A stretch of DNA of 64,000 bases from Leeuwenhoekiella nanhaiensis (GTDB taxonomy: Bacteria; Bacteroidota; Bacteroidia; Flavobacteriales; Flavobacteriaceae): contig NZ_KZ319287.1 in NCBI RefSeq assembly GCF_002744755.1, positions 620,001 to 684,000 on the forward strand, given 5' to 3'. The translations under genes were made by a program, and so were the position numbers. The notes beneath the pieces are model-generated. The model was given only the letters and a program-made list of their open reading frames with translations, was not told where the DNA came from and did not search any database. Position 1 is the first letter of the stretch, and the number at the start of each line of letters is the position of its first letter. Of the stretch, positions 55,619-64,000 are shown piece by piece.

Positions 55619-55629
55619 CAAGATAGAAT

Positions 55630-55661
55630 AAAAAAAGCCCCGCACTGCAGGGCTTTTTTTA
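55630..55661. terminator. Bidirectional terminator between secreted gene and arsM
   Basis: Stem AAAAAAGCCC / GGGCTTTTTT flanking GCACTGC-like loop, with T-runs on the plus strand and A-run on the other side, so it ends transcripts from both directions, including the arsM cluster. Confidence 0.85.
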
Positions 55662-55692
55662 TTTTTGCATCCGGCTGCAAGCCGGCCCGCGG

Positions 55693-56661
55693 TTAGCAGC
55701 ATCCACCACCATCATAATGAAAGGTGCTTTCGCTGATAAAAATATCGTCACGACCTAAAGCCTTTAAGGCTCCTGCGGTTTTATCACATACAGCCAGCGG
55801 CTGATTTTTCAGTAATACATGGCCTTTTTTGTCATCAAAATGATTTTCAGAACCGTAATAAATCGCGGCTTTTCCGGTAAAAATACACGGGCCATCTTCG
55901 GGCATAGGATCTTTGATGGCGGCTACCTCAATAGATTCGATATAGATGAGTTCGTCTGTAGGATAGTTTTTCGGGTCGAGAATGCGGTAGGGCTTGCGTG
56001 CACGGATTTCGATAGTTCCAAAACCGGCATCGGTAAGGGCTTTTACATACTCGCTAATCGGAAGGCTTCCGCTGAGGCAGAGCGCACGCAAACGCTCGTC
56101 ATTACGCAGCGTTTCGTTCATTTCCTGCTCGCAGGTAGGATCGCTCATTACCAGTCTTCCGTGAGGTTTCAGCACCCGGTACATTTCGGCGATTGCCTTC
56201 TTTAAATCTTCGGCTTTAAAAATATTGAACAGGCAGTTTTGAGCGGCCACGTCGATACTGTTATCCTCAACCGGCAGGTTTAAGGCATCTCCCTTTTTAA
56301 GGTCTACAAACTCACTTTTAAACCAGGGATTTTGCGCTTCGGCTTCTATAAAATTTTTACGTGAAGCTTCAAGCATTTCATCTACCACATCAACGCCCAC
56401 CACACCGCTTTTCTGGCGCGAGAAATAGGCAAATTGCAGCAGCTCCATGCCGCCGCCAACGCCTACATACAGCACCCGCGGATTGTTAGTCAGGTCGCGT
56501 GCGTTTACGGTGCTGCCGCAGCCGTAATTCATTTCCTGCATGATTTTCGGGATTTTCAGACCCGGCAATTCCCAGATGGGATTGGTTGTGCAGCAAAGTC
56601 CTACATCGGGCGTTAAAGCCGCATCGCGATATACATTCTTGGTGGTTTCTAAGTAGCTCAT
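55693..56661 (-). CDS. arsM: ArsM-like arsenite methyltransferase (arsenosugar type)
   Basis: 322-residue SAM-dependent methyltransferase of the ArsM type. Motif I is VLYVGVGGG (64-72), the acidic motif II region VVGVDVVDEMLE (about 87-98). The cysteine positions match ArsM: Cys143 in QNCLFNIF (the NCVINL-type site) and Cys195 in LCLSGSL (the CVAGA-type site), plus Cys23/Cys24, Cys48 in NYGCGST and a C-terminal GGGCC. ArsM binds trivalent arsenic with cysteines and methylates it. The sequence matches the group annotated with arsenosugar biosynthesis in Bacteroidota. It is the last gene of a six-gene minus-strand run. Confidence 0.85.
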   Translation of the reverse strand: MSYLETTKNVYRDAALTPDVGLCCTTNPIWELPGLKIPKIMQEMNYGCGSTVNARDLTNNPRVLYVGVGGGMELLQFAYFSRQKSGVVGVDVVDEMLEASRKNFIEAEAQNPWFKSEFVDLKKGDALNLPVEDNSIDVAAQNCLFNIFKAEDLKKAIAEMYRVLKPHGRLVMSDPTCEQEMNETLRNDERLRALCLSGSLPISEYVKALTDAGFGTIEIRARKPYRILDPKNYPTDELIYIESIEVAAIKDPMPEDGPCIFTGKAAIYYGSENHFDDKKGHVLLKNQPLAVCDKTAGALKALGRDDIFISESTFHYDGGGCC

Positions 56662-56687
56662 AGTTCCTTTTTTTTGATTTGTATTTT

Positions 56688-57515
56688 TTAAAGTTGAATG
56701 CCAAAACCCTGTAACCCGCTTTCATAGGGCGGAAGGATCTCGGTGTTATCCCAAATTCCGGTGATCAGGGTTCGGGCGTATTCCTGCGGCAGAAACTCGT
56801 TTTGCATGTGTGCGTTGGCGAGTTTATGATTGTACTGCATCGTGTGATGCGTAAAGCCGAAGCTTCCGTTTTGTTCTTCTAAAAGGGCGTACCATACGTG
56901 CGGCTGCCCGTCATTGGCCGGCATCCCAATCACACCCGGATTGATCCAAAGCTTATCATCGTGCTCCTGGTTAAATGGTAAACCACAATGCCCGGCGATG
57001 ATCACATCGGTTTGGAGGGCATCAAAATTTGCCTGCTTTTTCTCCCAGGGAGTTGACTTATAGACAAATTCCGAAACATTGAAGTAATCGCCGTGCACCA
57101 CAAAGATTTCTTTTTCCGCAAAGCGGAATGTGAGGTGATCAGGCAATTCCGAAATAAATTCCAGCGAAGATTTGCTGAGTTTACTCTGTGCATACGGAAA
57201 CCACATCTGGCTAAACCCGTCGCAACGCGAACCCTTTCTAAAATCACAACCGCAATCTTCAGCGCCGTCCCGAAGCTGAATTTCCACATTTCCCAGAATG
57301 CTTCGGGCACCCCAGATTTTAAAGAGCTGTACCACTTCTTCCGGCTGGCCGCAATAGCCCACGATGTCTCCGGTACAGATGCAATTTTCAGGAGGAATGC
57401 CTTGTTTTTCGGCAATACTCTTCAGCTTTTCCAGCGCCTGCAAATTGCTGTAGACGCCTCCAAAAAGCAGCACTTTTCCGTATAGCGAACCCAGATCTAC
57501 CACAGCTTTATCCAT
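56688..57515 (-). CDS. Degenerate metallophosphoesterase of the arsenic-type cluster
   Basis: About 275-residue calcineurin-like phosphoesterase fold with damaged metal ligands. The usual motif I (DxH in SDIHGN) reads FGGVYSN (Gly20, Tyr22), the GNHD motif reads GNVE and GHTH reads GHCG, while GD (CTGDIVG, Asp50), Asn76, His141 (VVHGD) and His176 remain. Metal site 1 is therefore lost and site 2 kept. A cysteine group (Cys88, Cys90, Cys98) is added. I start at ATG 57515 because the longer TTG frame overlaps the symporter gene by 46 bases; the shorter start overlaps by 19. It is coupled to the symporter and ArsM genes. Confidence 0.78.
   Translation of the reverse strand: MDKAVVDLGSLYGKVLLFGGVYSNLQALEKLKSIAEKQGIPPENCICTGDIVGYCGQPEEVVQLFKIWGARSILGNVEIQLRDGAEDCGCDFRKGSRCDGFSQMWFPYAQSKLSKSSLEFISELPDHLTFRFAEKEIFVVHGDYFNVSEFVYKSTPWEKKQANFDALQTDVIIAGHCGLPFNQEHDDKLWINPGVIGMPANDGQPHVWYALLEEQNGSFGFTHHTMQYNHKLANAHMQNEFLPQEYARTLITGIWDNTEILPPYESGLQGFGIQL
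57114..57128. repeat. Palindrome TTCCGCAAAGCGGAA inside the phosphoesterase gene
   Basis: Identical 15-mer to the intergenic one at 12112-12126, here within coding sequence. Confidence 0.6.
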
Positions 57516-58834
57516 GAAGGTATGAGATATACAATTAAACAAGAAGCGATTCCCCAGACATTAACCCAAAGCAAATCGGCATAATTTCCCTGGGTAAGAA
57601 TCCAGCTTTTTGGGATGAGGTCAAACAGCAGGAGAAAACCAAACAGGAGTCCACAACCCACACTCAGGTAAAAACTGATTTTAGGCGCGGGCAGTTTCCA
57701 AAATAAAAATACCGGTGTCAGGCCAATAACCATAGTCCCCGAGATGGTGGTTGCCGACAGGATTTTGGCATCTAAAAAAATGGGGATGGTTCCCAAAATG
57801 ACCAAAACGCCCATAGCGATACGTCCCAGCGTGATGCTTTCGCCCCAATTCAAATCAACCGCAACCAGTTTTGAGAAGGACGAAAACGTGGAATCTAGCG
57901 TAGAAGCTGCCGATGTAATCATAATAAAATTGATGATGAGTAAAATCACGGTACCAAAGGCTTTGCCTACTTCAACTGCTGCCTGGCCCTGCATTCCCAT
58001 GGCCTGAGCATACACGCCCACGATACTGAAAAGTATGATGCAGGCACCGCCCAAAACGCTGGCCCAGAGAAAACTTTTGAGGGTTACCCGCGGCGAACTC
58101 AAAAAAGCACGGTCGGTCAATACGGGATCGTGAAAGGGGTAACTAAACGACTGAATCAGGGCCGCAAAAAGCAGGTTTAGACCCGTTTCAAAACTCCAGA
58201 TTCCGCTATTGACCGTTTGGCTCACGGTAAAACCGGGAACCGAGTAGATGTTTGATAACACCACAAACAGTAAAATGCTAAAAAGCCCCATTTGGATCAC
58301 GTCGGTAAAAATCGAACTGCTGAGTCCGCCTTTTAGTGAGTACGCCAGCGTAAGCAAACTAAAGACGATGATGGCTGCGTAGTAGGCTTCGGAGTCAACG
58401 GTGCCAAAATAGCTGCCTATAACCATAGTGTTGCTCCAAACCTCATTAAACAGGCGTATAGCGATGAGGATCGAAAAGATACGCATCGCGTTTTTTCCAA
58501 ACCGGGTGGTTAAAAACTGATGCAGACTTGTAAAGCCTCCTTTTTTACGCATAAAATAGATGAGTATGCCGGCAACAGCAAAGGATAGGTAGTAGCCTGC
58601 ATAAGCGACTCCGCCTACGATCCCAAACTCAAGGCCCAGGTTTGCAGCATTGGTAATGCTCTTGGCAAAAATCCACGAGATGACGAGGCTCCCGGTAAGC
58701 ATAAACACATTAGGCACTTTATTGCGATGGGTCGCCTTAAAAAAATCATCAGTCGATTTGGCAAGCGGGGACAGTAAAAACAGGATCAAACTTGACCCGA
58801 TAATCAAAACCCATTGCCACATTAGTGTACTCAA
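57497..58834 (-). CDS. Sodium:solute symporter family transporter
   Basis: 445-residue SSF-fold transporter with about 12-13 membrane helices. Typical segments are DDFFKATHRNKVPNVFMLTGSLVISWIFAKS in helix 1-2 and LTLAYSLKGGLSSSIFTDVIQM in helix 5, where Ala/Ser-Gly-Gly-Leu pattern is characteristic. It imports a small solute with sodium; the substrate is unknown. Given the neighbours, an arsenic- or sugar-containing compound or a precursor is possible. The gene starts 12 bases from susD and overlaps the phosphoesterase start by 19 bases. Confidence 0.88.
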   Translation of the reverse strand: MSTLMWQWVLIIGSSLILFLLSPLAKSTDDFFKATHRNKVPNVFMLTGSLVISWIFAKSITNAANLGLEFGIVGGVAYAGYYLSFAVAGILIYFMRKKGGFTSLHQFLTTRFGKNAMRIFSILIAIRLFNEVWSNTMVIGSYFGTVDSEAYYAAIIVFSLLTLAYSLKGGLSSSIFTDVIQMGLFSILLFVVLSNIYSVPGFTVSQTVNSGIWSFETGLNLLFAALIQSFSYPFHDPVLTDRAFLSSPRVTLKSFLWASVLGGACIILFSIVGVYAQAMGMQGQAAVEVGKAFGTVILLIINFIMITSAASTLDSTFSSFSKLVAVDLNWGESITLGRIAMGVLVILGTIPIFLDAKILSATTISGTMVIGLTPVFLFWKLPAPKISFYLSVGCGLLFGFLLLFDLIPKSWILTQGNYADLLWVNVWGIASCLIVYLIPSWIKLW

Positions 58835-58846
58835 ATTCTTAGTTTT

Positions 58847-60286
58847 TTAGTTATCCCACCATACGGGGGTGTCCAGACTGTTACCATTTGTGGCCTGCGC
58901 CGCCTGCCGGTAATTATCTGCGTTCAATGCTTCTTCTTCTGCCGGGTAAGGCATACGCACCGGGATTTTGCCGTCGTTGAGACTGGCAGCAACCGGTTTA
59001 AAAGCCGGGAAGCCCGTGCGGCGCCATTCAACCCAACCTTCATAGCCGTTTATGATATTGGCGATCCACTTTTGGGTGATGATTTGCTGCACCGGAGTCG
59101 TTCCGGGAGCGTTGTAAGCCGCTGATCCCGCAAGGTAATTTGCAGGCAAGTCGGTAAGCCAGTATTCAAAAGCCTGCGTCACGCCGGTGTTGTACAGGTT
59201 TGCTCCATCGGCATTAATATAGCCTTTTGCGGCTGCTTCGGCCAAAATAAAATGGGTTTCCCAGGCCGTCATAAAGTTGGCGTTGAGGTCTGCTGTATTT
59301 TCTCTGAAAAGGGTTCCCGCAAGCGAAAAGTTTGCCGGTTCAATGGAGGTTTGGGAGGCATTGATGCCATTGATCAAGCCGTTGAAATCTCCGGAAGTCG
59401 AATTTGCAAACGGACGGAAGAATACCGCGATGCGATCGTCATTCAATTCTTTTAAAATGTCTTCCATAGTTTCTGAAAGCACAAAGTTGTTAAAATCTCC
59501 TGCCCGTAATTGCGCAAAGCGGAAGCTATTTGGAGCACTTGCCGTAAAGTCAAACGTAGCATTGTCTGCATTGCTCGCGATAAAGTTTCCTTCGGCGTAA
59601 ATGGCCGCGATTTGAGCCGCCACATCTTCACGCCCGGAAATACGCATCAGGGCTTTCAGCTTTAGGGAATTTGCAAATTGCACCCAGTTTTCCAGATTTC
59701 CTGAAAACAACAGGTCGCCTTCTAAAGCAACCGCTCCCTGATAGGCTTCAAGAGCAGCGATACCTTTGTCCAGATTGTCCAGAATTCCGCCTTCGGCGAG
59801 ATAGATGTCTTCCTGTGCGTCGTAGGCAGCAGTAACCGTCCCGTCAATGCCGTTGAAAGCTTCAAAATAAGGTACGTCGCCAAATAAATCGGTAAGTCCC
59901 TGAGCCATGTAGGCTTTTAAAATCAGGGCCGGACCTTCATAAACTTTAAAGGTTTCCACATTTTGAGCCTGTTTGAGTAAAATCTCATTATCCCGCAAAT
60001 TGGTGTAAAAAACCGGCCAGGGATTGCCACCCAGTTGAGGCGACTTCAGCGCGTGACGGTCAAACAGGTTAAAATCGAGCGCGGTGCGATGCTGCGACAG
60101 TAAATCACCGGCGGCAAAACCCTCGTAGCTCATTTGTTCGCCAAAATCATAAATCACCTGCCGCAATAGCAAGCCCGGCTGCACGTTTACCGGCGCGTTG
60201 GGGTTGGTGTTGAGGTCTTCAAAATCTGTGGTGCAGGCTGTAAAAAGCGTCAGACCCAGAATCAATATGCTGTATAGTTTTTTCAT
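58847..60286 (-). CDS. SusD/RagB-like outer-membrane lipoprotein
   Basis: 479-residue SusD-like lipoprotein (lipobox LFTAC, Cys18). Mature start TTDFEDLNTNPNAP and segments AYMAQGLTDLFGDVPYFEAF (about 128-147) and TQKWIANIINGYEGWVEWRRTGFP near the C-terminus are typical of the SusD-2 variant whose ligands are often not glycans. It forms the lid of the SusC transporter encoded 28 bases upstream. Four to five TPR helices make the scaffold. Substrate unknown. Confidence 0.93.
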   Translation of the reverse strand: MKKLYSILILGLTLFTACTTDFEDLNTNPNAPVNVQPGLLLRQVIYDFGEQMSYEGFAAGDLLSQHRTALDFNLFDRHALKSPQLGGNPWPVFYTNLRDNEILLKQAQNVETFKVYEGPALILKAYMAQGLTDLFGDVPYFEAFNGIDGTVTAAYDAQEDIYLAEGGILDNLDKGIAALEAYQGAVALEGDLLFSGNLENWVQFANSLKLKALMRISGREDVAAQIAAIYAEGNFIASNADNATFDFTASAPNSFRFAQLRAGDFNNFVLSETMEDILKELNDDRIAVFFRPFANSTSGDFNGLINGINASQTSIEPANFSLAGTLFRENTADLNANFMTAWETHFILAEAAAKGYINADGANLYNTGVTQAFEYWLTDLPANYLAGSAAYNAPGTTPVQQIITQKWIANIINGYEGWVEWRRTGFPAFKPVAASLNDGKIPVRMPYPAEEEALNADNYRQAAQATNGNSLDTPVWWDN

Positions 60287-60314
60287 CTTCTAAATGTTTT
60301 TGATCCTTCAGGCC

Positions 60315-63300
60315 TTAAAAATTAAAGCCCGCTTTTAAGCCGATGCTGCGGCTGGTGGCATAACTCATATCTTCAACCCCGCTTACAAAAGTGTTGCCCT
60401 GTACCGCAAGTTGTTCCGGGTCAAAATGCGGAATCTCCGAAATCGCAAACAGATTGCGGCCTACCAGCGCCAGGTTGATGTTCATGCCGTTAGCAAGACC
60501 CAGAAACCCGTCTTTCAGATCAAAAGTGTAGCCTACTGAAAATTGGCGCAACTTCAGGAAAGACGCGTTATAAATGTTGTTTTCCTCATGGTTACGGTCG
60601 TAAAACTGGCGGTAGTAGGTTTCTGCCGAAACCGCGGTGGTGTTGGGCACGTACTGCGGATTTTCTGCGGTGCCGGTATTCACAACGCCTTGCGGTACGA
60701 TTCCTTCTTCGGGACGGTTTGCCGTCTCGGCAAGCTGACCGCCCACAGTCCCCAGAGCACGTGTTCGCGAGACGAGTTCGCCTCCCTGACGCCAGTCAAA
60801 CAGGAAACTCAGGTTCCAGTTTTTGTAAGTGAAATCACTGTTCCAGCCCAGCATAAAATCGGGGTTGTAATTGCCCAGTTTTTTTAAAGTGTTGTCTGCG
60901 ATATAGCTTCCGGAAGGTGTGAGAATAAACTGGCCATTTTCGGTCTTTCGGTAACCGGTACCGTAGATATCGCCTATTCTTCCACCTTCTTCCACCTGAA
61001 ACCACACGGTTTGATTGGCGCTGTCGTAGATTCGGCTGTAAGCCAAAGTCAAACGCCCGTCTGCCTGCGGCAGGCTTTCAACCTCAGAACGGGAAGTGCT
61101 GAAGTTAAAAGTGGTGTTCCATTTAAAGTTTGAGTTCAATACTGGCGTGGCGTTAAGAATGAGTTCGACTCCGCGGGTGCGTACCTCGCCACCATTTACG
61201 ACCTGCTGGTTGTATCCCGAAGAAATCGCAATAGGAAGCGAGATGATCTGATCTTGAGTCAGGTTGTTGTAATAAGTCGCGTCAAGCCTGATGCGGTCTT
61301 TTAAAAACCGAATATCAGCGCCTACTTCGTACGAAGTGGTTTGTTCCGGTTTGAGGTTTGCATTCGGAATAAAATTTTGATTGCTGAAGGTAGGCTGCCC
61401 GTTGTAAGGGGTCTGCGAAATGAAAGCGCCGCTGGTTTGATAAGGCTGGGTATCGTTACCCACCTGAGCCACGCTGGCGCGCAGTTGCACATACGAGAAG
61501 GTTTCCGGAAGCTTTGCCACTTCAGAGAGTATAAAACTCGCAGAAGCCGAAGGATAGAAAAATGAAGTCTCATCTACCGAAAAGGGTGTGGCAAGCGCGC
61601 TTGACCAGTCGTTACGCCCGGTGATGTCGAGAAACAGAAAATCGCGGTAACCCAGTTTGGCTATGCCGTAAAACGAATTGATGCGCTTGCGTGATTCAAA
61701 CTGAAACACATCGATGGGAGAAGCCGCGTTGTTGAGGTTAAAAATGCCGGGTTGTGCGAGGTTTACGGTCTGACTTTGTTTGGTTGAGGCTTTTTGATCG
61801 AGTCGGTTTCCGCCCAGCGAAATATCTACAGATAGGTCACCAAAAATCTTGTTGTAATTCAAAAGGAAATCGGTATTTACCTCTCTGTACAACACATCGT
61901 GCTCGGCATAACCCCCGTTTTTAAAACGGTTAGAACTGAAAGCGCGACGCAGTTGGCGGGTTTCGGAAGAGTAATCCATCCCGCTGCGTACGGCAAGGCT
62001 TAGATTTTCGGTAAACTGGTGCTTAAGCGACAGGTTTCCAAAAACACGATCCCGATTGAAAGAGTTGCGGTTTTCATACATAATGAAAAACGGATTGTCA
62101 AAATAGGTGTAGTTAAATGAAAACTGTTGCACACCCTCAAGTCCCGGTTGCCAGTAGCGGCGCAGGCTGTTCATATCCAGAGAGCGCGGACCCCAGGCGA
62201 CAAGCGAATAATTGACGTTTTCGCTTCCATACCCATTAGACGGGCGGTTGTCACTGCCCGAATTCACATAATTGATGGTCGCATTGAAGCGGGTCTTATC
62301 GGTAGGCTTAAAGTTGAGTTTGGCGGCCACCGTCTGGCGGTCGAGATTCACTCCGGGAATGATGGCTTCGCTGCGCAAATCGGTAAAGGAAAGGCGGTAA
62401 TTGCCTTTTTCAAAACCGCTGCCAATGGCTACGTTGTTGATGGTAGTGACTCCGGTTTGGTAAAAGTCTTTCAGATTGTCTGGGTGCGAATTAAATGGAG
62501 TAGGGGTGATGGGAAGTCCGTCATAAAGCGCTGTGTCGCCCCCGCGTACCACGCTCCCGTCTGGCAAGGTAACCGGAGAATCAAATTGAGCAATGAGGGT
62601 GCCCTGATCTAAACGCGGACCCCAGGAATAGGTGATGAGGTCGTTAACACCGCCACCTAAACCGTCAACGAACTCAAATTGTCCCGAGTTGCCCTGCCCG
62701 TATTGATTTTGAAATTCAGGCAGTTTAAAAGGCGTATCTAAAAACACAGAAGTATTTACGCTGATTCCTAAACCCTTGCTTTGGCTTCCGTTTTTGGTTT
62801 CGATTATGATCACACCATTTGACGCCCGGGTTCCGTAAAGGGCGGCGGCACTGGGACCTTTCAATACACTTACCGAAGCGATATCATCGGGATTGACTTC
62901 CATCGCACCGTTACCAAAATCTACTTCCTGAAAACCGGCAGCGGCTTCATTGGTGTTGTTGAAAACCGTGTTGTTATTGATGGGCGTTCCGTCTACGATA
63001 AACAGCGGATTGTTGTTGGAAAAGGAAGCCTCCCCGCGAATGGTAATCTTAGAGGAAGATCCTACACCGGTGGCACCTTGCGATACGGTAACCCCGGCCA
63101 GTTTTCCCGCGAGATTATCCAGAAAGTTGGGCGCTTTTACAGCTGATACTTCTTCGGCTTCAATGGTTTGAACCACATAGCCCAGTTCTTTGGTTTCGCG
63201 CTCCAGTCCCAAGGCCGTGATTACGACTTCATCAAGATCTGTAGTAGATTCCTGCAAAACGATATTGATGGTTTGCTGCCCATTTATTGCGGCGGTTTGC

Positions 63301-63530
63301 GTGATAAAACCAATTGCCGAAAAGCGCAATTGGGTCGCTTTTGCAGAAAGGCTTAAGCTGTAATAACCATTTTCATCTGTGATGGTGTTGGCATCGGCAT
63401 CTACCGCGACAACATTTACAAAAGGGACCGTAGAACCGTCACTAGAAGTGGTTACGGTACCCGAAATTAGAGTCTGGCCGTTTGCAAATGCACAAAGCAA
63501 GAGCATAAGCCCAAAATAAAGGTGTTTCAT
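60315..63530 (-). CDS. SusC/RagA TonB-dependent transporter
   Basis: 1,071-residue TonB-linked outer-membrane transporter: signal peptide (ending AFANGQ), a carboxypeptidase-regulatory-like domain (about 22-95), a TonB-box region near DLDEVVITALG, plug domain (about 110-240, VIIIETKNGS) and a 22-strand barrel ending SRSIGLKAGFNF. The pair with SusD makes a nutrient- or metabolite-import complex. The four TonB-type domains of this window could energise it. It lies 63 bases behind the glycosyltransferase gene, with a 6-bp hairpin (63559-63576) in the gap. Confidence 0.96.
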   Translation of the reverse strand: MKHLYFGLMLLLCAFANGQTLISGTVTTSSDGSTVPFVNVVAVDADANTITDENGYYSLSLSAKATQLRFSAIGFITQTAAINGQQTINIVLQESTTDLDEVVITALGLERETKELGYVVQTIEAEEVSAVKAPNFLDNLAGKLAGVTVSQGATGVGSSSKITIRGEASFSNNNPLFIVDGTPINNNTVFNNTNEAAAGFQEVDFGNGAMEVNPDDIASVSVLKGPSAAALYGTRASNGVIIIETKNGSQSKGLGISVNTSVFLDTPFKLPEFQNQYGQGNSGQFEFVDGLGGGVNDLITYSWGPRLDQGTLIAQFDSPVTLPDGSVVRGGDTALYDGLPITPTPFNSHPDNLKDFYQTGVTTINNVAIGSGFEKGNYRLSFTDLRSEAIIPGVNLDRQTVAAKLNFKPTDKTRFNATINYVNSGSDNRPSNGYGSENVNYSLVAWGPRSLDMNSLRRYWQPGLEGVQQFSFNYTYFDNPFFIMYENRNSFNRDRVFGNLSLKHQFTENLSLAVRSGMDYSSETRQLRRAFSSNRFKNGGYAEHDVLYREVNTDFLLNYNKIFGDLSVDISLGGNRLDQKASTKQSQTVNLAQPGIFNLNNAASPIDVFQFESRKRINSFYGIAKLGYRDFLFLDITGRNDWSSALATPFSVDETSFFYPSASASFILSEVAKLPETFSYVQLRASVAQVGNDTQPYQTSGAFISQTPYNGQPTFSNQNFIPNANLKPEQTTSYEVGADIRFLKDRIRLDATYYNNLTQDQIISLPIAISSGYNQQVVNGGEVRTRGVELILNATPVLNSNFKWNTTFNFSTSRSEVESLPQADGRLTLAYSRIYDSANQTVWFQVEEGGRIGDIYGTGYRKTENGQFILTPSGSYIADNTLKKLGNYNPDFMLGWNSDFTYKNWNLSFLFDWRQGGELVSRTRALGTVGGQLAETANRPEEGIVPQGVVNTGTAENPQYVPNTTAVSAETYYRQFYDRNHEENNIYNASFLKLRQFSVGYTFDLKDGFLGLANGMNINLALVGRNLFAISEIPHFDPEQLAVQGNTFVSGVEDMSYATSRSIGLKAGFNF

Positions 63531-63593
63531 TAAATAAAGGTAGGATTAGTACTTGTGAGGCTTCGGTGAGGAAGCCCTGCTTGAAATAGCGTT

Positions 63594-64000
63594 TTAGGCG
63601 ATACTAAGGGGCGAACCTTTATTGAAGTAAACCGGATGGGAAAAAAGCCAGGCGGTAAGGGATTTAAAGCTGAAAAGGTGAACTTTCTGAACAGCAGATT
63701 TTACTAAAAGTTTCCGTATCTGAAATGGAAGCTTTTTAGCAGTGCTCAATAGCAGAGCGACATCTGCCGAAGTATCCAGATCGTAAAGCGCCGGAAGCAA
63801 TTCGGCATGTATTTTTTTAGCCTGAACCAAACGCAGGATACTGCGCGTCAGTGAGGCGGTTTGCCAGGGTAAATTTAAAAAGGATTGGGCGTCAAAATGG
63901 GTTTTGCTCAAGCCCATCAGGTAGAACCCGCCGTCGTGTGAGGGACCCAGAACCAGCGGACAGGTTTTGAGTTTTTCAGCTGCGGTGAGCAGATGATTTT
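63594..64000 (-). CDS. DUF2064/TIGR04282-like glycosyltransferase (5' part outside window)
   Basis: The frame is open to the right edge; 134 C-terminal residues plus 2 bases are visible. It contains LVLGPSHDGGFYLMGLSK, which carries the DGG(F/Y)YL signature of the DUF2064 family (TIGR04282), a group linked to arsenosugar biosynthesis, followed by a helical C-terminus (FLNLPWQTASLTRSILRL). Nucleotide-sugar-binding residues would be upstream of the edge. It is the first visible gene of the minus-strand cluster, with SusC after 63 bases. The family match is good for a partial sequence, but catalytic parts are not visible. Confidence 0.75.
   Translation of the reverse strand, partial: NHLLTAAEKLKTCPLVLGPSHDGGFYLMGLSKTHFDAQSFLNLPWQTASLTRSILRLVQAKKIHAELLPALYDLDTSADVALLLSTAKKLPFQIRKLLVKSAVQKVHLFSFKSLTAWLFSHPVYFNKGSPLSIA

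Follow-up and report, generated by a model that had tools for sequence, protein, structure and literature searches.

The stretch of DNA analysed here (the window) comprises 64,000 nucleotides of contig NZ_KZ319287.1 from Leeuwenhoekiella nanhaiensis. Its right-hand end holds a locus that, judged by sequence, is an arsenosugar-type gene cluster with an added cassette, in which genes for a SusC protein, a SusD protein, an SSF symporter and a metallophosphoesterase-like protein (MPE) follow one another. Six genes, all on the minus strand, were located by reading the open reading frames (ORFs) of the window, and the cluster was followed to the right on the same contig and strand, up to about position 68137, in the piece L002 (window coordinate = L002 + 55000). 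The features are as follows.

55627..55663, minus strand: terminator-like hairpin with a 17-pair stem, directly 3' of arsM (pattern/consensus scan)
55693..56661, minus strand: arsM, arsenosugar-type arsenite methyltransferase, 322 aa (NF038099, 575.5 bits; cut-off 400)
56688..57515, minus strand: MPE, a cysteine-bearing, ligand-depleted protein of the metallophosphoesterase fold, starting at ATG 57515 or TTG 57542
57497..58834, minus strand: SSF-type sodium/solute symporter of an ArsS-linked subfamily, 445 aa (PF00474, 26.2 bits; gathering threshold 22.8)
58847..60286, minus strand: SusD-like surface lipoprotein (SusD-like_2), 479 aa (PF12771, 306 bits)
60315..63530, minus strand: SusC/RagA TonB-dependent outer-membrane transporter, 1071 aa, with plug and barrel (TIGR04056, 591 bits; cut-off 368)
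63594..64000, minus strand: GT1, a diverged TIGR04282-like gene, 3' part in the window (TIGR04282, 99.3 bits; cut-off 134)
L002:9284-10351, minus strand: ArsS (TIGR04167, 439.2 bits; cut-off 300)
L002:10422-10760, minus strand: AhpD-like protein (TIGR04169, 190 bits; cut-off 120)
L002:10926-11738, minus strand: PNP, purine-nucleoside phosphorylase, to the right of the window
L002:11880-12560, minus strand: GT2, a full TIGR04282 gene (219 bits; cut-off 134)
L002:12589-13137, minus strand: rhodanese (NF045521)

A preliminary description of the window had named the families of the six genes, placed the ArsM-like protein in an arsenic family and expected ArsS just beyond the right-hand edge. Coordinates and profile scores agree with all of this: the NF038099 score of 575 bits rejects a non-arsenic identity for the methyltransferase, ArsS lies at the predicted place, and the AhpD-like gene, PNP, a second TIGR04282 gene and the rhodanese gene follow it. 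For the profiles of the arsenosugar cluster, family cut-offs are exceeded by ArsM, ArsS, the AhpD-like protein and one TIGR04282 protein. The glycosyltransferase assignment was correct only as far as likeness goes, as GT1 resembles TIGR04282 proteins while scoring below the family cut-off. At full length, GT1 has 226 amino acids and extends to window-equivalent position 64274 (L002:8594-9274). The GKxKTRL motif is missing in all 77 GT1 ORFs longer than 190 amino acids (12 and 65, from two sets sharing some genomes).

In the direction of transcription, the order is rhodanese, TIGR04282, PNP, AhpD-like, ArsS, GT1, SusC, SusD, SSF, MPE and ArsM. From ArsS to ArsM the intergenic gaps are 9, 63, 28, 12, -46 and 26 bases; the negative value reflects the overlap of the MPE reading frame with the SSF gene, and becomes -19 with the ATG start. 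A second terminator-like hairpin, found by pattern scan only, separates PNP from the AhpD-like gene. Given this hairpin and the one 3' of arsM, the genes from the AhpD-like gene through arsM may form one transcription unit. The terminator scan as a whole returned 34 hairpins, compared with 18.1 expected in shuffles, and a promoter scan gave no excess (15 sites, compared with 18.5 in shuffles).

The core of the locus is shared with the arsenosugar biosynthesis cluster defined by NF038099, TIGR04167, TIGR04169 and TIGR04282, together with PNP and rhodanese; what is added here are SusC, SusD, SSF, the altered phosphoesterase and GT1. Among 199 Flavobacteriaceae genomes (198 genera), NF038099 was above its cut-off in 117. 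The 117 ArsM loci read consist of 116 that were fetched and the window's own; one genome (G178) contributes two, and one fragment (G112) was left out. The usual order in these loci is AhpD-ArsS-rhodanese-TIGR04282-PNP-ArsM; the Leeuwenhoekiella order differs from that of most Flavobacteriaceae read. ArsS is inside 94 of the 117 pieces, and the remaining genomes carry it elsewhere. A TIGR04283-type glycosyltransferase is found near 92 of the loci (each of two scanned representatives exceeds the cut-off) and a DUF547 gene near 89 (one representative scanned). In two sets of loci, 90 of 93 and 77 of 77 of the AhpD-like proteins encoded separately contain CPYC.

Two further genes recur in the ArsM loci. 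A fatty-acid hydroxylase gene is near 42 of the 117, close behind arsM in many (for example, L037:16009-16896, plus strand; one representative scanned), and its position could hint at a lipid-linked product. A PHO4 phosphate transporter gene is present in 12 (for example, L116:2764-3876, minus strand; one representative scanned), and is 3' of arsM among the ArsM loci listed.

Ten of the 117 ArsM loci, the window's own included, have the whole GT1-SusC-SusD-SSF-MPE block with its gene order unchanged, and an eleventh whole block (G010) appeared after its locus was extended. GT1 stands alone in three loci (L034, L087 and L133). A pattern scan with the MPE alignment, over one genome per species for 84,980 species, gave 232 confirmed relatives, the nearest named one from Leeuwenhoekiella parthenopeia (97% identity). 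The best 80 of these were kept; from their titles they were taken as flavobacterial, and some are the same genomes as in the Flavobacteriaceae set. In the loci of these best 80 of 232, SSF adjoins MPE in every case, GT2 is present in 80, PNP in 78, ArsS and AhpD in 77 each, SusD in 75, SusC in 74, rhodanese in 73, GT1 in 69 and ArsM in 36. The three loci that lack ArsS are short contigs of 6.4, 11.6 and 16.1 kb. Of the three outcomes by which the preliminary description would have been refuted (absence of arsenic genes to the right of the window, assignment of the ArsM-like protein to a non-arsenic family, lack of SusCD conservation next to ArsM in relatives), none was observed; the SusCD link is conserved in part of the relatives.

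SusC-SusD-SSF-MPE forms a conserved cassette whose presence is linked to that of ArsS. In the Flavobacteriaceae set, ArsS is present in 148 genomes, among them all 117 with an NF038099 ArsM, and SSF in 30, every one of which has ArsS (Fisher p = 7e-5). The two genes are at most 7.2 kb apart in 29 of these 30 genomes, and 180 kb apart in G087. In a broader sample of 296 Bacteroidota, the MPE profile scores at least 351 bits in six genomes, the other matches listed reaching at most 102; the SSF profile (E 1e-25) finds those six genomes and no other. ArsS is present in all six, compared with 121 of the 296 overall. Three of these genomes do not belong to the Flavobacteriales. The cassette adjoins ArsS in G379 and G368, and is on a separate contig from ArsS in G267. 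A chance neighbourhood was rejected as an explanation, as the gene order recurs in many genera.

This linkage bears on one view of the cassette, in which it recaptures released arsenosugars or arsenolipids, the cell's own or those of neighbours, for membranes or as a shared good, and does not feed ArsS. The window cassette does lie on the strand of a complete synthesis cluster, separated from it by small gaps, and the hydroxylase genes could mean a lipid product. However, recapture would leave no need for ArsS, PNP and GT2, and these genes are kept in 30 of 30 genomes (ArsS), 78 of 80 loci (PNP) and 80 of 80 loci (GT2). We consider this view improbable.

The cassette is also associated with the absence of ArsM. 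An ArsM of any kind, defined as a match of at least 60 bits to NF038099 and thus including weaker matches of about 66-109 bits, is found in 111 of the 118 ArsS genomes that lack SSF, but in 17 of the 30 that carry it (Fisher p = 2.5e-6). With the count restricted to genomes of 90% completeness or more and 5% contamination or less, 12 of 29 with SSF lack ArsM, versus 3 of 101 without SSF (p = 5e-7), and when only NF038099 proteins are counted, ArsM is present in 16 of 30 versus 101 of 118 (p = 3e-4). In the named genomes, beside the 36 cassette loci that include ArsM, 42 of 80 extend through PNP and at least 3 kb beyond but have no ArsM in the piece, and 2 cannot be judged; these counts cover the fetched locus pieces and not the rest of each genome. 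Both states occur within single genera: Polaribacter has six cassette loci with ArsM and seven without, and Winogradskyella one with and seven without. That the presence of the cassette goes with loss of ArsM suggests uptake of ready-made organic arsenic.

On a tree of 102 ArsS sequences, the seven ArsM-less cassette rows require 7 changes, at least five of them forced by starred branches; shuffled labels give a mean of 6.9, the same as observed. These rows are therefore not one clade, and the absence of ArsM looks scattered, although the resolution of the tree is weak. Six further ArsM-less cassette genomes are off the tree, having no sequence. G002, a long branch, was dropped from the comparison of ArsS columns, in which no column separated the 7 ArsM-less from 94 ArsM-bearing rows at the thresholds used. 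The substrate of ArsS therefore need not have changed, and a shift of ArsS to another substrate in the ArsM-less species was rejected at those thresholds. Seven genomes that carry SusC and lack ArsM had been considered as evidence against a role in arsenic metabolism; this too was rejected, because all seven have ArsS close to the SSF gene.

The MPE has the SapH / PH1004 type of fold, with VIA comparison giving Z scores of 22-24 over 209-235 residues, an rmsd of about 3 A and 18-25% identity to 3qfn, 2gju, 1nnw and 3rqz. Catalytic calcineurin-like phosphoesterases bind their metals through SDxH, GNHD and GHxH motifs. In all 95 distinct cassette-type MPE sequences this metal-ligand set is incomplete: SDxH is changed to GGxY, the histidine of GNHD to valine and the second histidine of GHxH to glycine, so that D20, H22, H77 and H178, four metal-ligand positions of the motifs, are lost, and D50, N76, H141 and H176 are retained. 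Four cysteines (C55, C88, C90 and C98) are invariant in the 95 sequences, and C45 and C177 are present in 92 and 93, respectively. In G368 and G056, which belong to different families, the cassette MPE carries a TIGR04169 domain as a C-terminal fusion (L262:9587-10828, minus strand; L287:2772-4025, plus strand), with domain scores of 143 and 193 bits against a cut-off of 120.

Ordinary relatives of the MPE were obtained as 25 matches among the 296 Bacteroidota, 24 of them with loci. The aspartate and histidine of SDxH and both histidines of GHxH are kept in 24 of 24. The cassette proteins differ from them in GGxY and GHxG and in the addition of C55 and C98. An initial idea that all six conserved cysteines are new in the cassette was wrong, because C88 and C90 already occur in 11 of the 24, the eight best-scoring included, and C45 and C177 are not invariant. 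An ACR3 gene is present in the piece of about 4 kb around 10 of the 24, corresponding to nine genes because two pieces (L237 and L258) overlap in one genome. Typical operons are ArsR-DUF6428-ACR3-MPE-MPE and ArsR-ArsM-MPE with ACR3 beyond, so that these proteins, like the ars-operon metallophosphoesterases already known, lie in operons with ArsR, ACR3, ArsC-like or ArsM genes. By sequence comparison, the cassette MPE is kin of such ordinary ars-operon proteins. Two phosphoesterases in ars operons of Mucilaginibacter gossypii P3, mrme1 and mrme2, are stated as not characterized in a genome note (PMC10652896), and are set beside the MPE relatives by operon description and not by sequence identity. 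In ordinary ars operons with ArsR, ACR3, ArsM or ArsC-like genes there is a phosphoesterase family that has GNYD and a CGC motif (L267:7900-11765, L268:8523-12355 and L269:8052-11406).

The presence of MPE relatives in ACR3 operons is what would be expected if the cassette served arsenic resistance or sensing, with SSF and the cysteine protein removing or buffering arsenic and SusCD being a settled nutrient pair. SSF proteins, however, usually take up solutes, and SusCD is among the best conserved parts of the cassette, SusC being present in 74 of 80 loci. This role therefore seems very unlikely. Across the cassettes, SusC is 68-89% identical and SusD 68-85% identical to the window's own, with mean column identities of 80% and 79%. 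Within this genome, the SusC ranking next reaches 681 bits versus 2173 for the cassette protein, and in other genomes SusC genes outside the cassette reach 1092 bits. SusC is split into two frames (252 and 803 aa) in Lacinutrix algicola (L158), through sequencing error or decay.

The nearest SusC of solved structure is BT_2264 (5fq6; profile score 496 bits). TIGR04056 is common to SusCD transporters of this type and the cassette; here the pair is accompanied by ArsS and an SSF symporter instead of glycoside hydrolases. No hydrolase, lyase, sulfatase or peptidase was found among the 11 operon proteins searched with NCBIfam (six also with Pfam), and with no carbohydrate-active enzymes among them an ordinary polysaccharide utilization locus was rejected. 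SSF itself passes PF00474 narrowly and fails the TIGR00813 cut-off (32.6 bits versus 184). Its solved relatives amount to one weak match, a choline transporter at 32 bits, which says little on the cargo.

The 681-bit paralogue lies in a locus with the order ECF sigma-FecR-SusC-SusD-MetallophosN/C phosphoesterase-GDPD (L279:4615-13853, plus strand), which looks like a glycerophosphodiester uptake locus. Since this SusC stands beside phosphoesterase and GDPD genes, a phosphodiester such as phospho-arsenosugar could be the cargo of the cassette, though by analogy this is a weak hint. The same locus favours a further possibility, that the cassette imports a partner for the pathway which contains no arsenic, namely a glycerol or phosphodiester headgroup for dimethylarsinoyl-ribose, prepared by GT1 and MPE. 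Natural arsenosugars bear glycerol or phosphoglycerol aglycones, and GT1 travels with SusC (69 and 74 of 80 loci, respectively). Import of a headgroup would, however, leave unexplained the frequent absence of ArsM in cassette genomes, and likewise the ars-operon kinship of the MPE and its lost catalytic ligands; clusters that have no cassette also keep the remaining core genes. Such a role is unlikely, if less so than recapture of finished products.

The reading preferred here is that of an arsenosugar operon to which a cassette for importing a pre-methylated organoarsenical has been added; we consider this reading about evenly balanced between being right and wrong. The company of ArsS, the frequent absence of ArsM, the ars-operon kinship of the MPE and its fusion to an AhpD-like domain fit import of such a compound feeding ArsS. 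In a first step, SusCD would bind a dimethylarsinoyl compound, probably of algal origin, and, powered by TonB, take it through the outer membrane. SSF would then move the compound, or a small product of it, over the inner membrane with sodium. The MPE, with four invariant cysteines and no full two-metal site, might bind the arsenical and, together with the CxxC AhpD-like protein, bring it to a trivalent, thiol-bound form used by ArsS. Finally, assembly of the arsenosugar by ArsS, PNP and the TIGR04282-type proteins would proceed as it does in cassette-free clusters. Species with a retained ArsM, that of the window among them, could draw on both arsenic sources, and in many relatives import would replace ArsM.

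What is said here of the enzymology of ArsM, ArsS, SSF and SusCD is general background on these families; we infer the cargo and its direction, how the third step works chemically, and that ArsS uses the same substrate. In its fullest form, the proposal is that a dedicated line for TonB- and sodium-driven uptake of organoarsenicals lets flavobacteria build arsenosugars without arsenic methylation of their own, by way of an arsenical-handling protein of a new kind, its thiol site being remade from the metal site of an ars-kin phosphoesterase and working with the AhpD-like protein. This fuller form is offered more tentatively, as something rather more likely to fail than to hold. The preliminary description of the cluster is thus partly supported: uptake of an organoarsenical is retained as the preferred reading, on account of the loss of ArsM, the kinship of the MPE and its invariant cysteines, with substrate and direction remaining conjectural, and the recycling, exchange or sugar-precursor uptake that it had also suggested are possible alternatives.

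Several observations weigh against import of a pre-methylated arsenical. An ArsM is kept in 17 of the 30 cassette genomes, the window's own included. Conversely, 7 of the 20 ArsM-less ArsS genomes have no cassette (G046, G063 and G098, at least 90% complete; G062, G065, G095 and G170, less complete), so that import by the cassette route is not required, and ArsM could be replaced by an unrecognised methyltransferase in the ArsM-less species. The Fisher tests treat genomes as independent. The ArsS tree was quickly made and is weakly resolved (among 99 inner branches, 11 are starred and 41 are open), and it holds 7 of the 13 ArsM-less cassette genomes, picked for having the cassette. SSF-MPE occurs without SusCD in 5 of 80 named-genome loci and in 2 of the 117 ArsM loci (L102 and L107).

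The cargo and the proposed thiol site meet objections of their own. Free dimethylarsinic acid (DMA), a small molecule, could do without a TonB transporter; a larger arsenosugar or arsenolipid headgroup would fit better as cargo. The context of the paralogous SusC speaks for phosphodiesters no less than for arsenic. In the MPE, the cysteines C88 and C90 are shared with ordinary relatives, the best-scoring of which (L236) has no ars gene nearby in the 20 kb read (L266). The cysteine loop (residues 84-97) has pLDDT values below 50 in the structure model, so that a joined thiol site is conjectural.

In the literature searched, no description of the cassette was found in titles and abstracts, most subscription journals lying outside the scope of the search. 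In a survey of membrane transporters in ars operons (PMC4435449), the terms TonB, SusC, phosphoesterase, arsenosugar and Flavobacter occur zero times and symporter once, in a reference. ArsM group I is described as coming from cyanobacteria and Bacteroidetes in PMC5552862.

If the cassette does import organoarsenicals, it would provide a genetic handle on the uptake, exchange and rebuilding of organic arsenic in the sea, processes that are poorly known at the gene level. It would explain the source of methylated arsenic in those species that have ArsS without ArsM, and would give a testable function to a phosphoesterase family of bacterial arsenic operons. The tight link to ArsS, together with the repeated absence of ArsM, would surprise a specialist. 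Bacteria would then hand on and rebuild organoarsenic compounds made by algae, and not only break them down.

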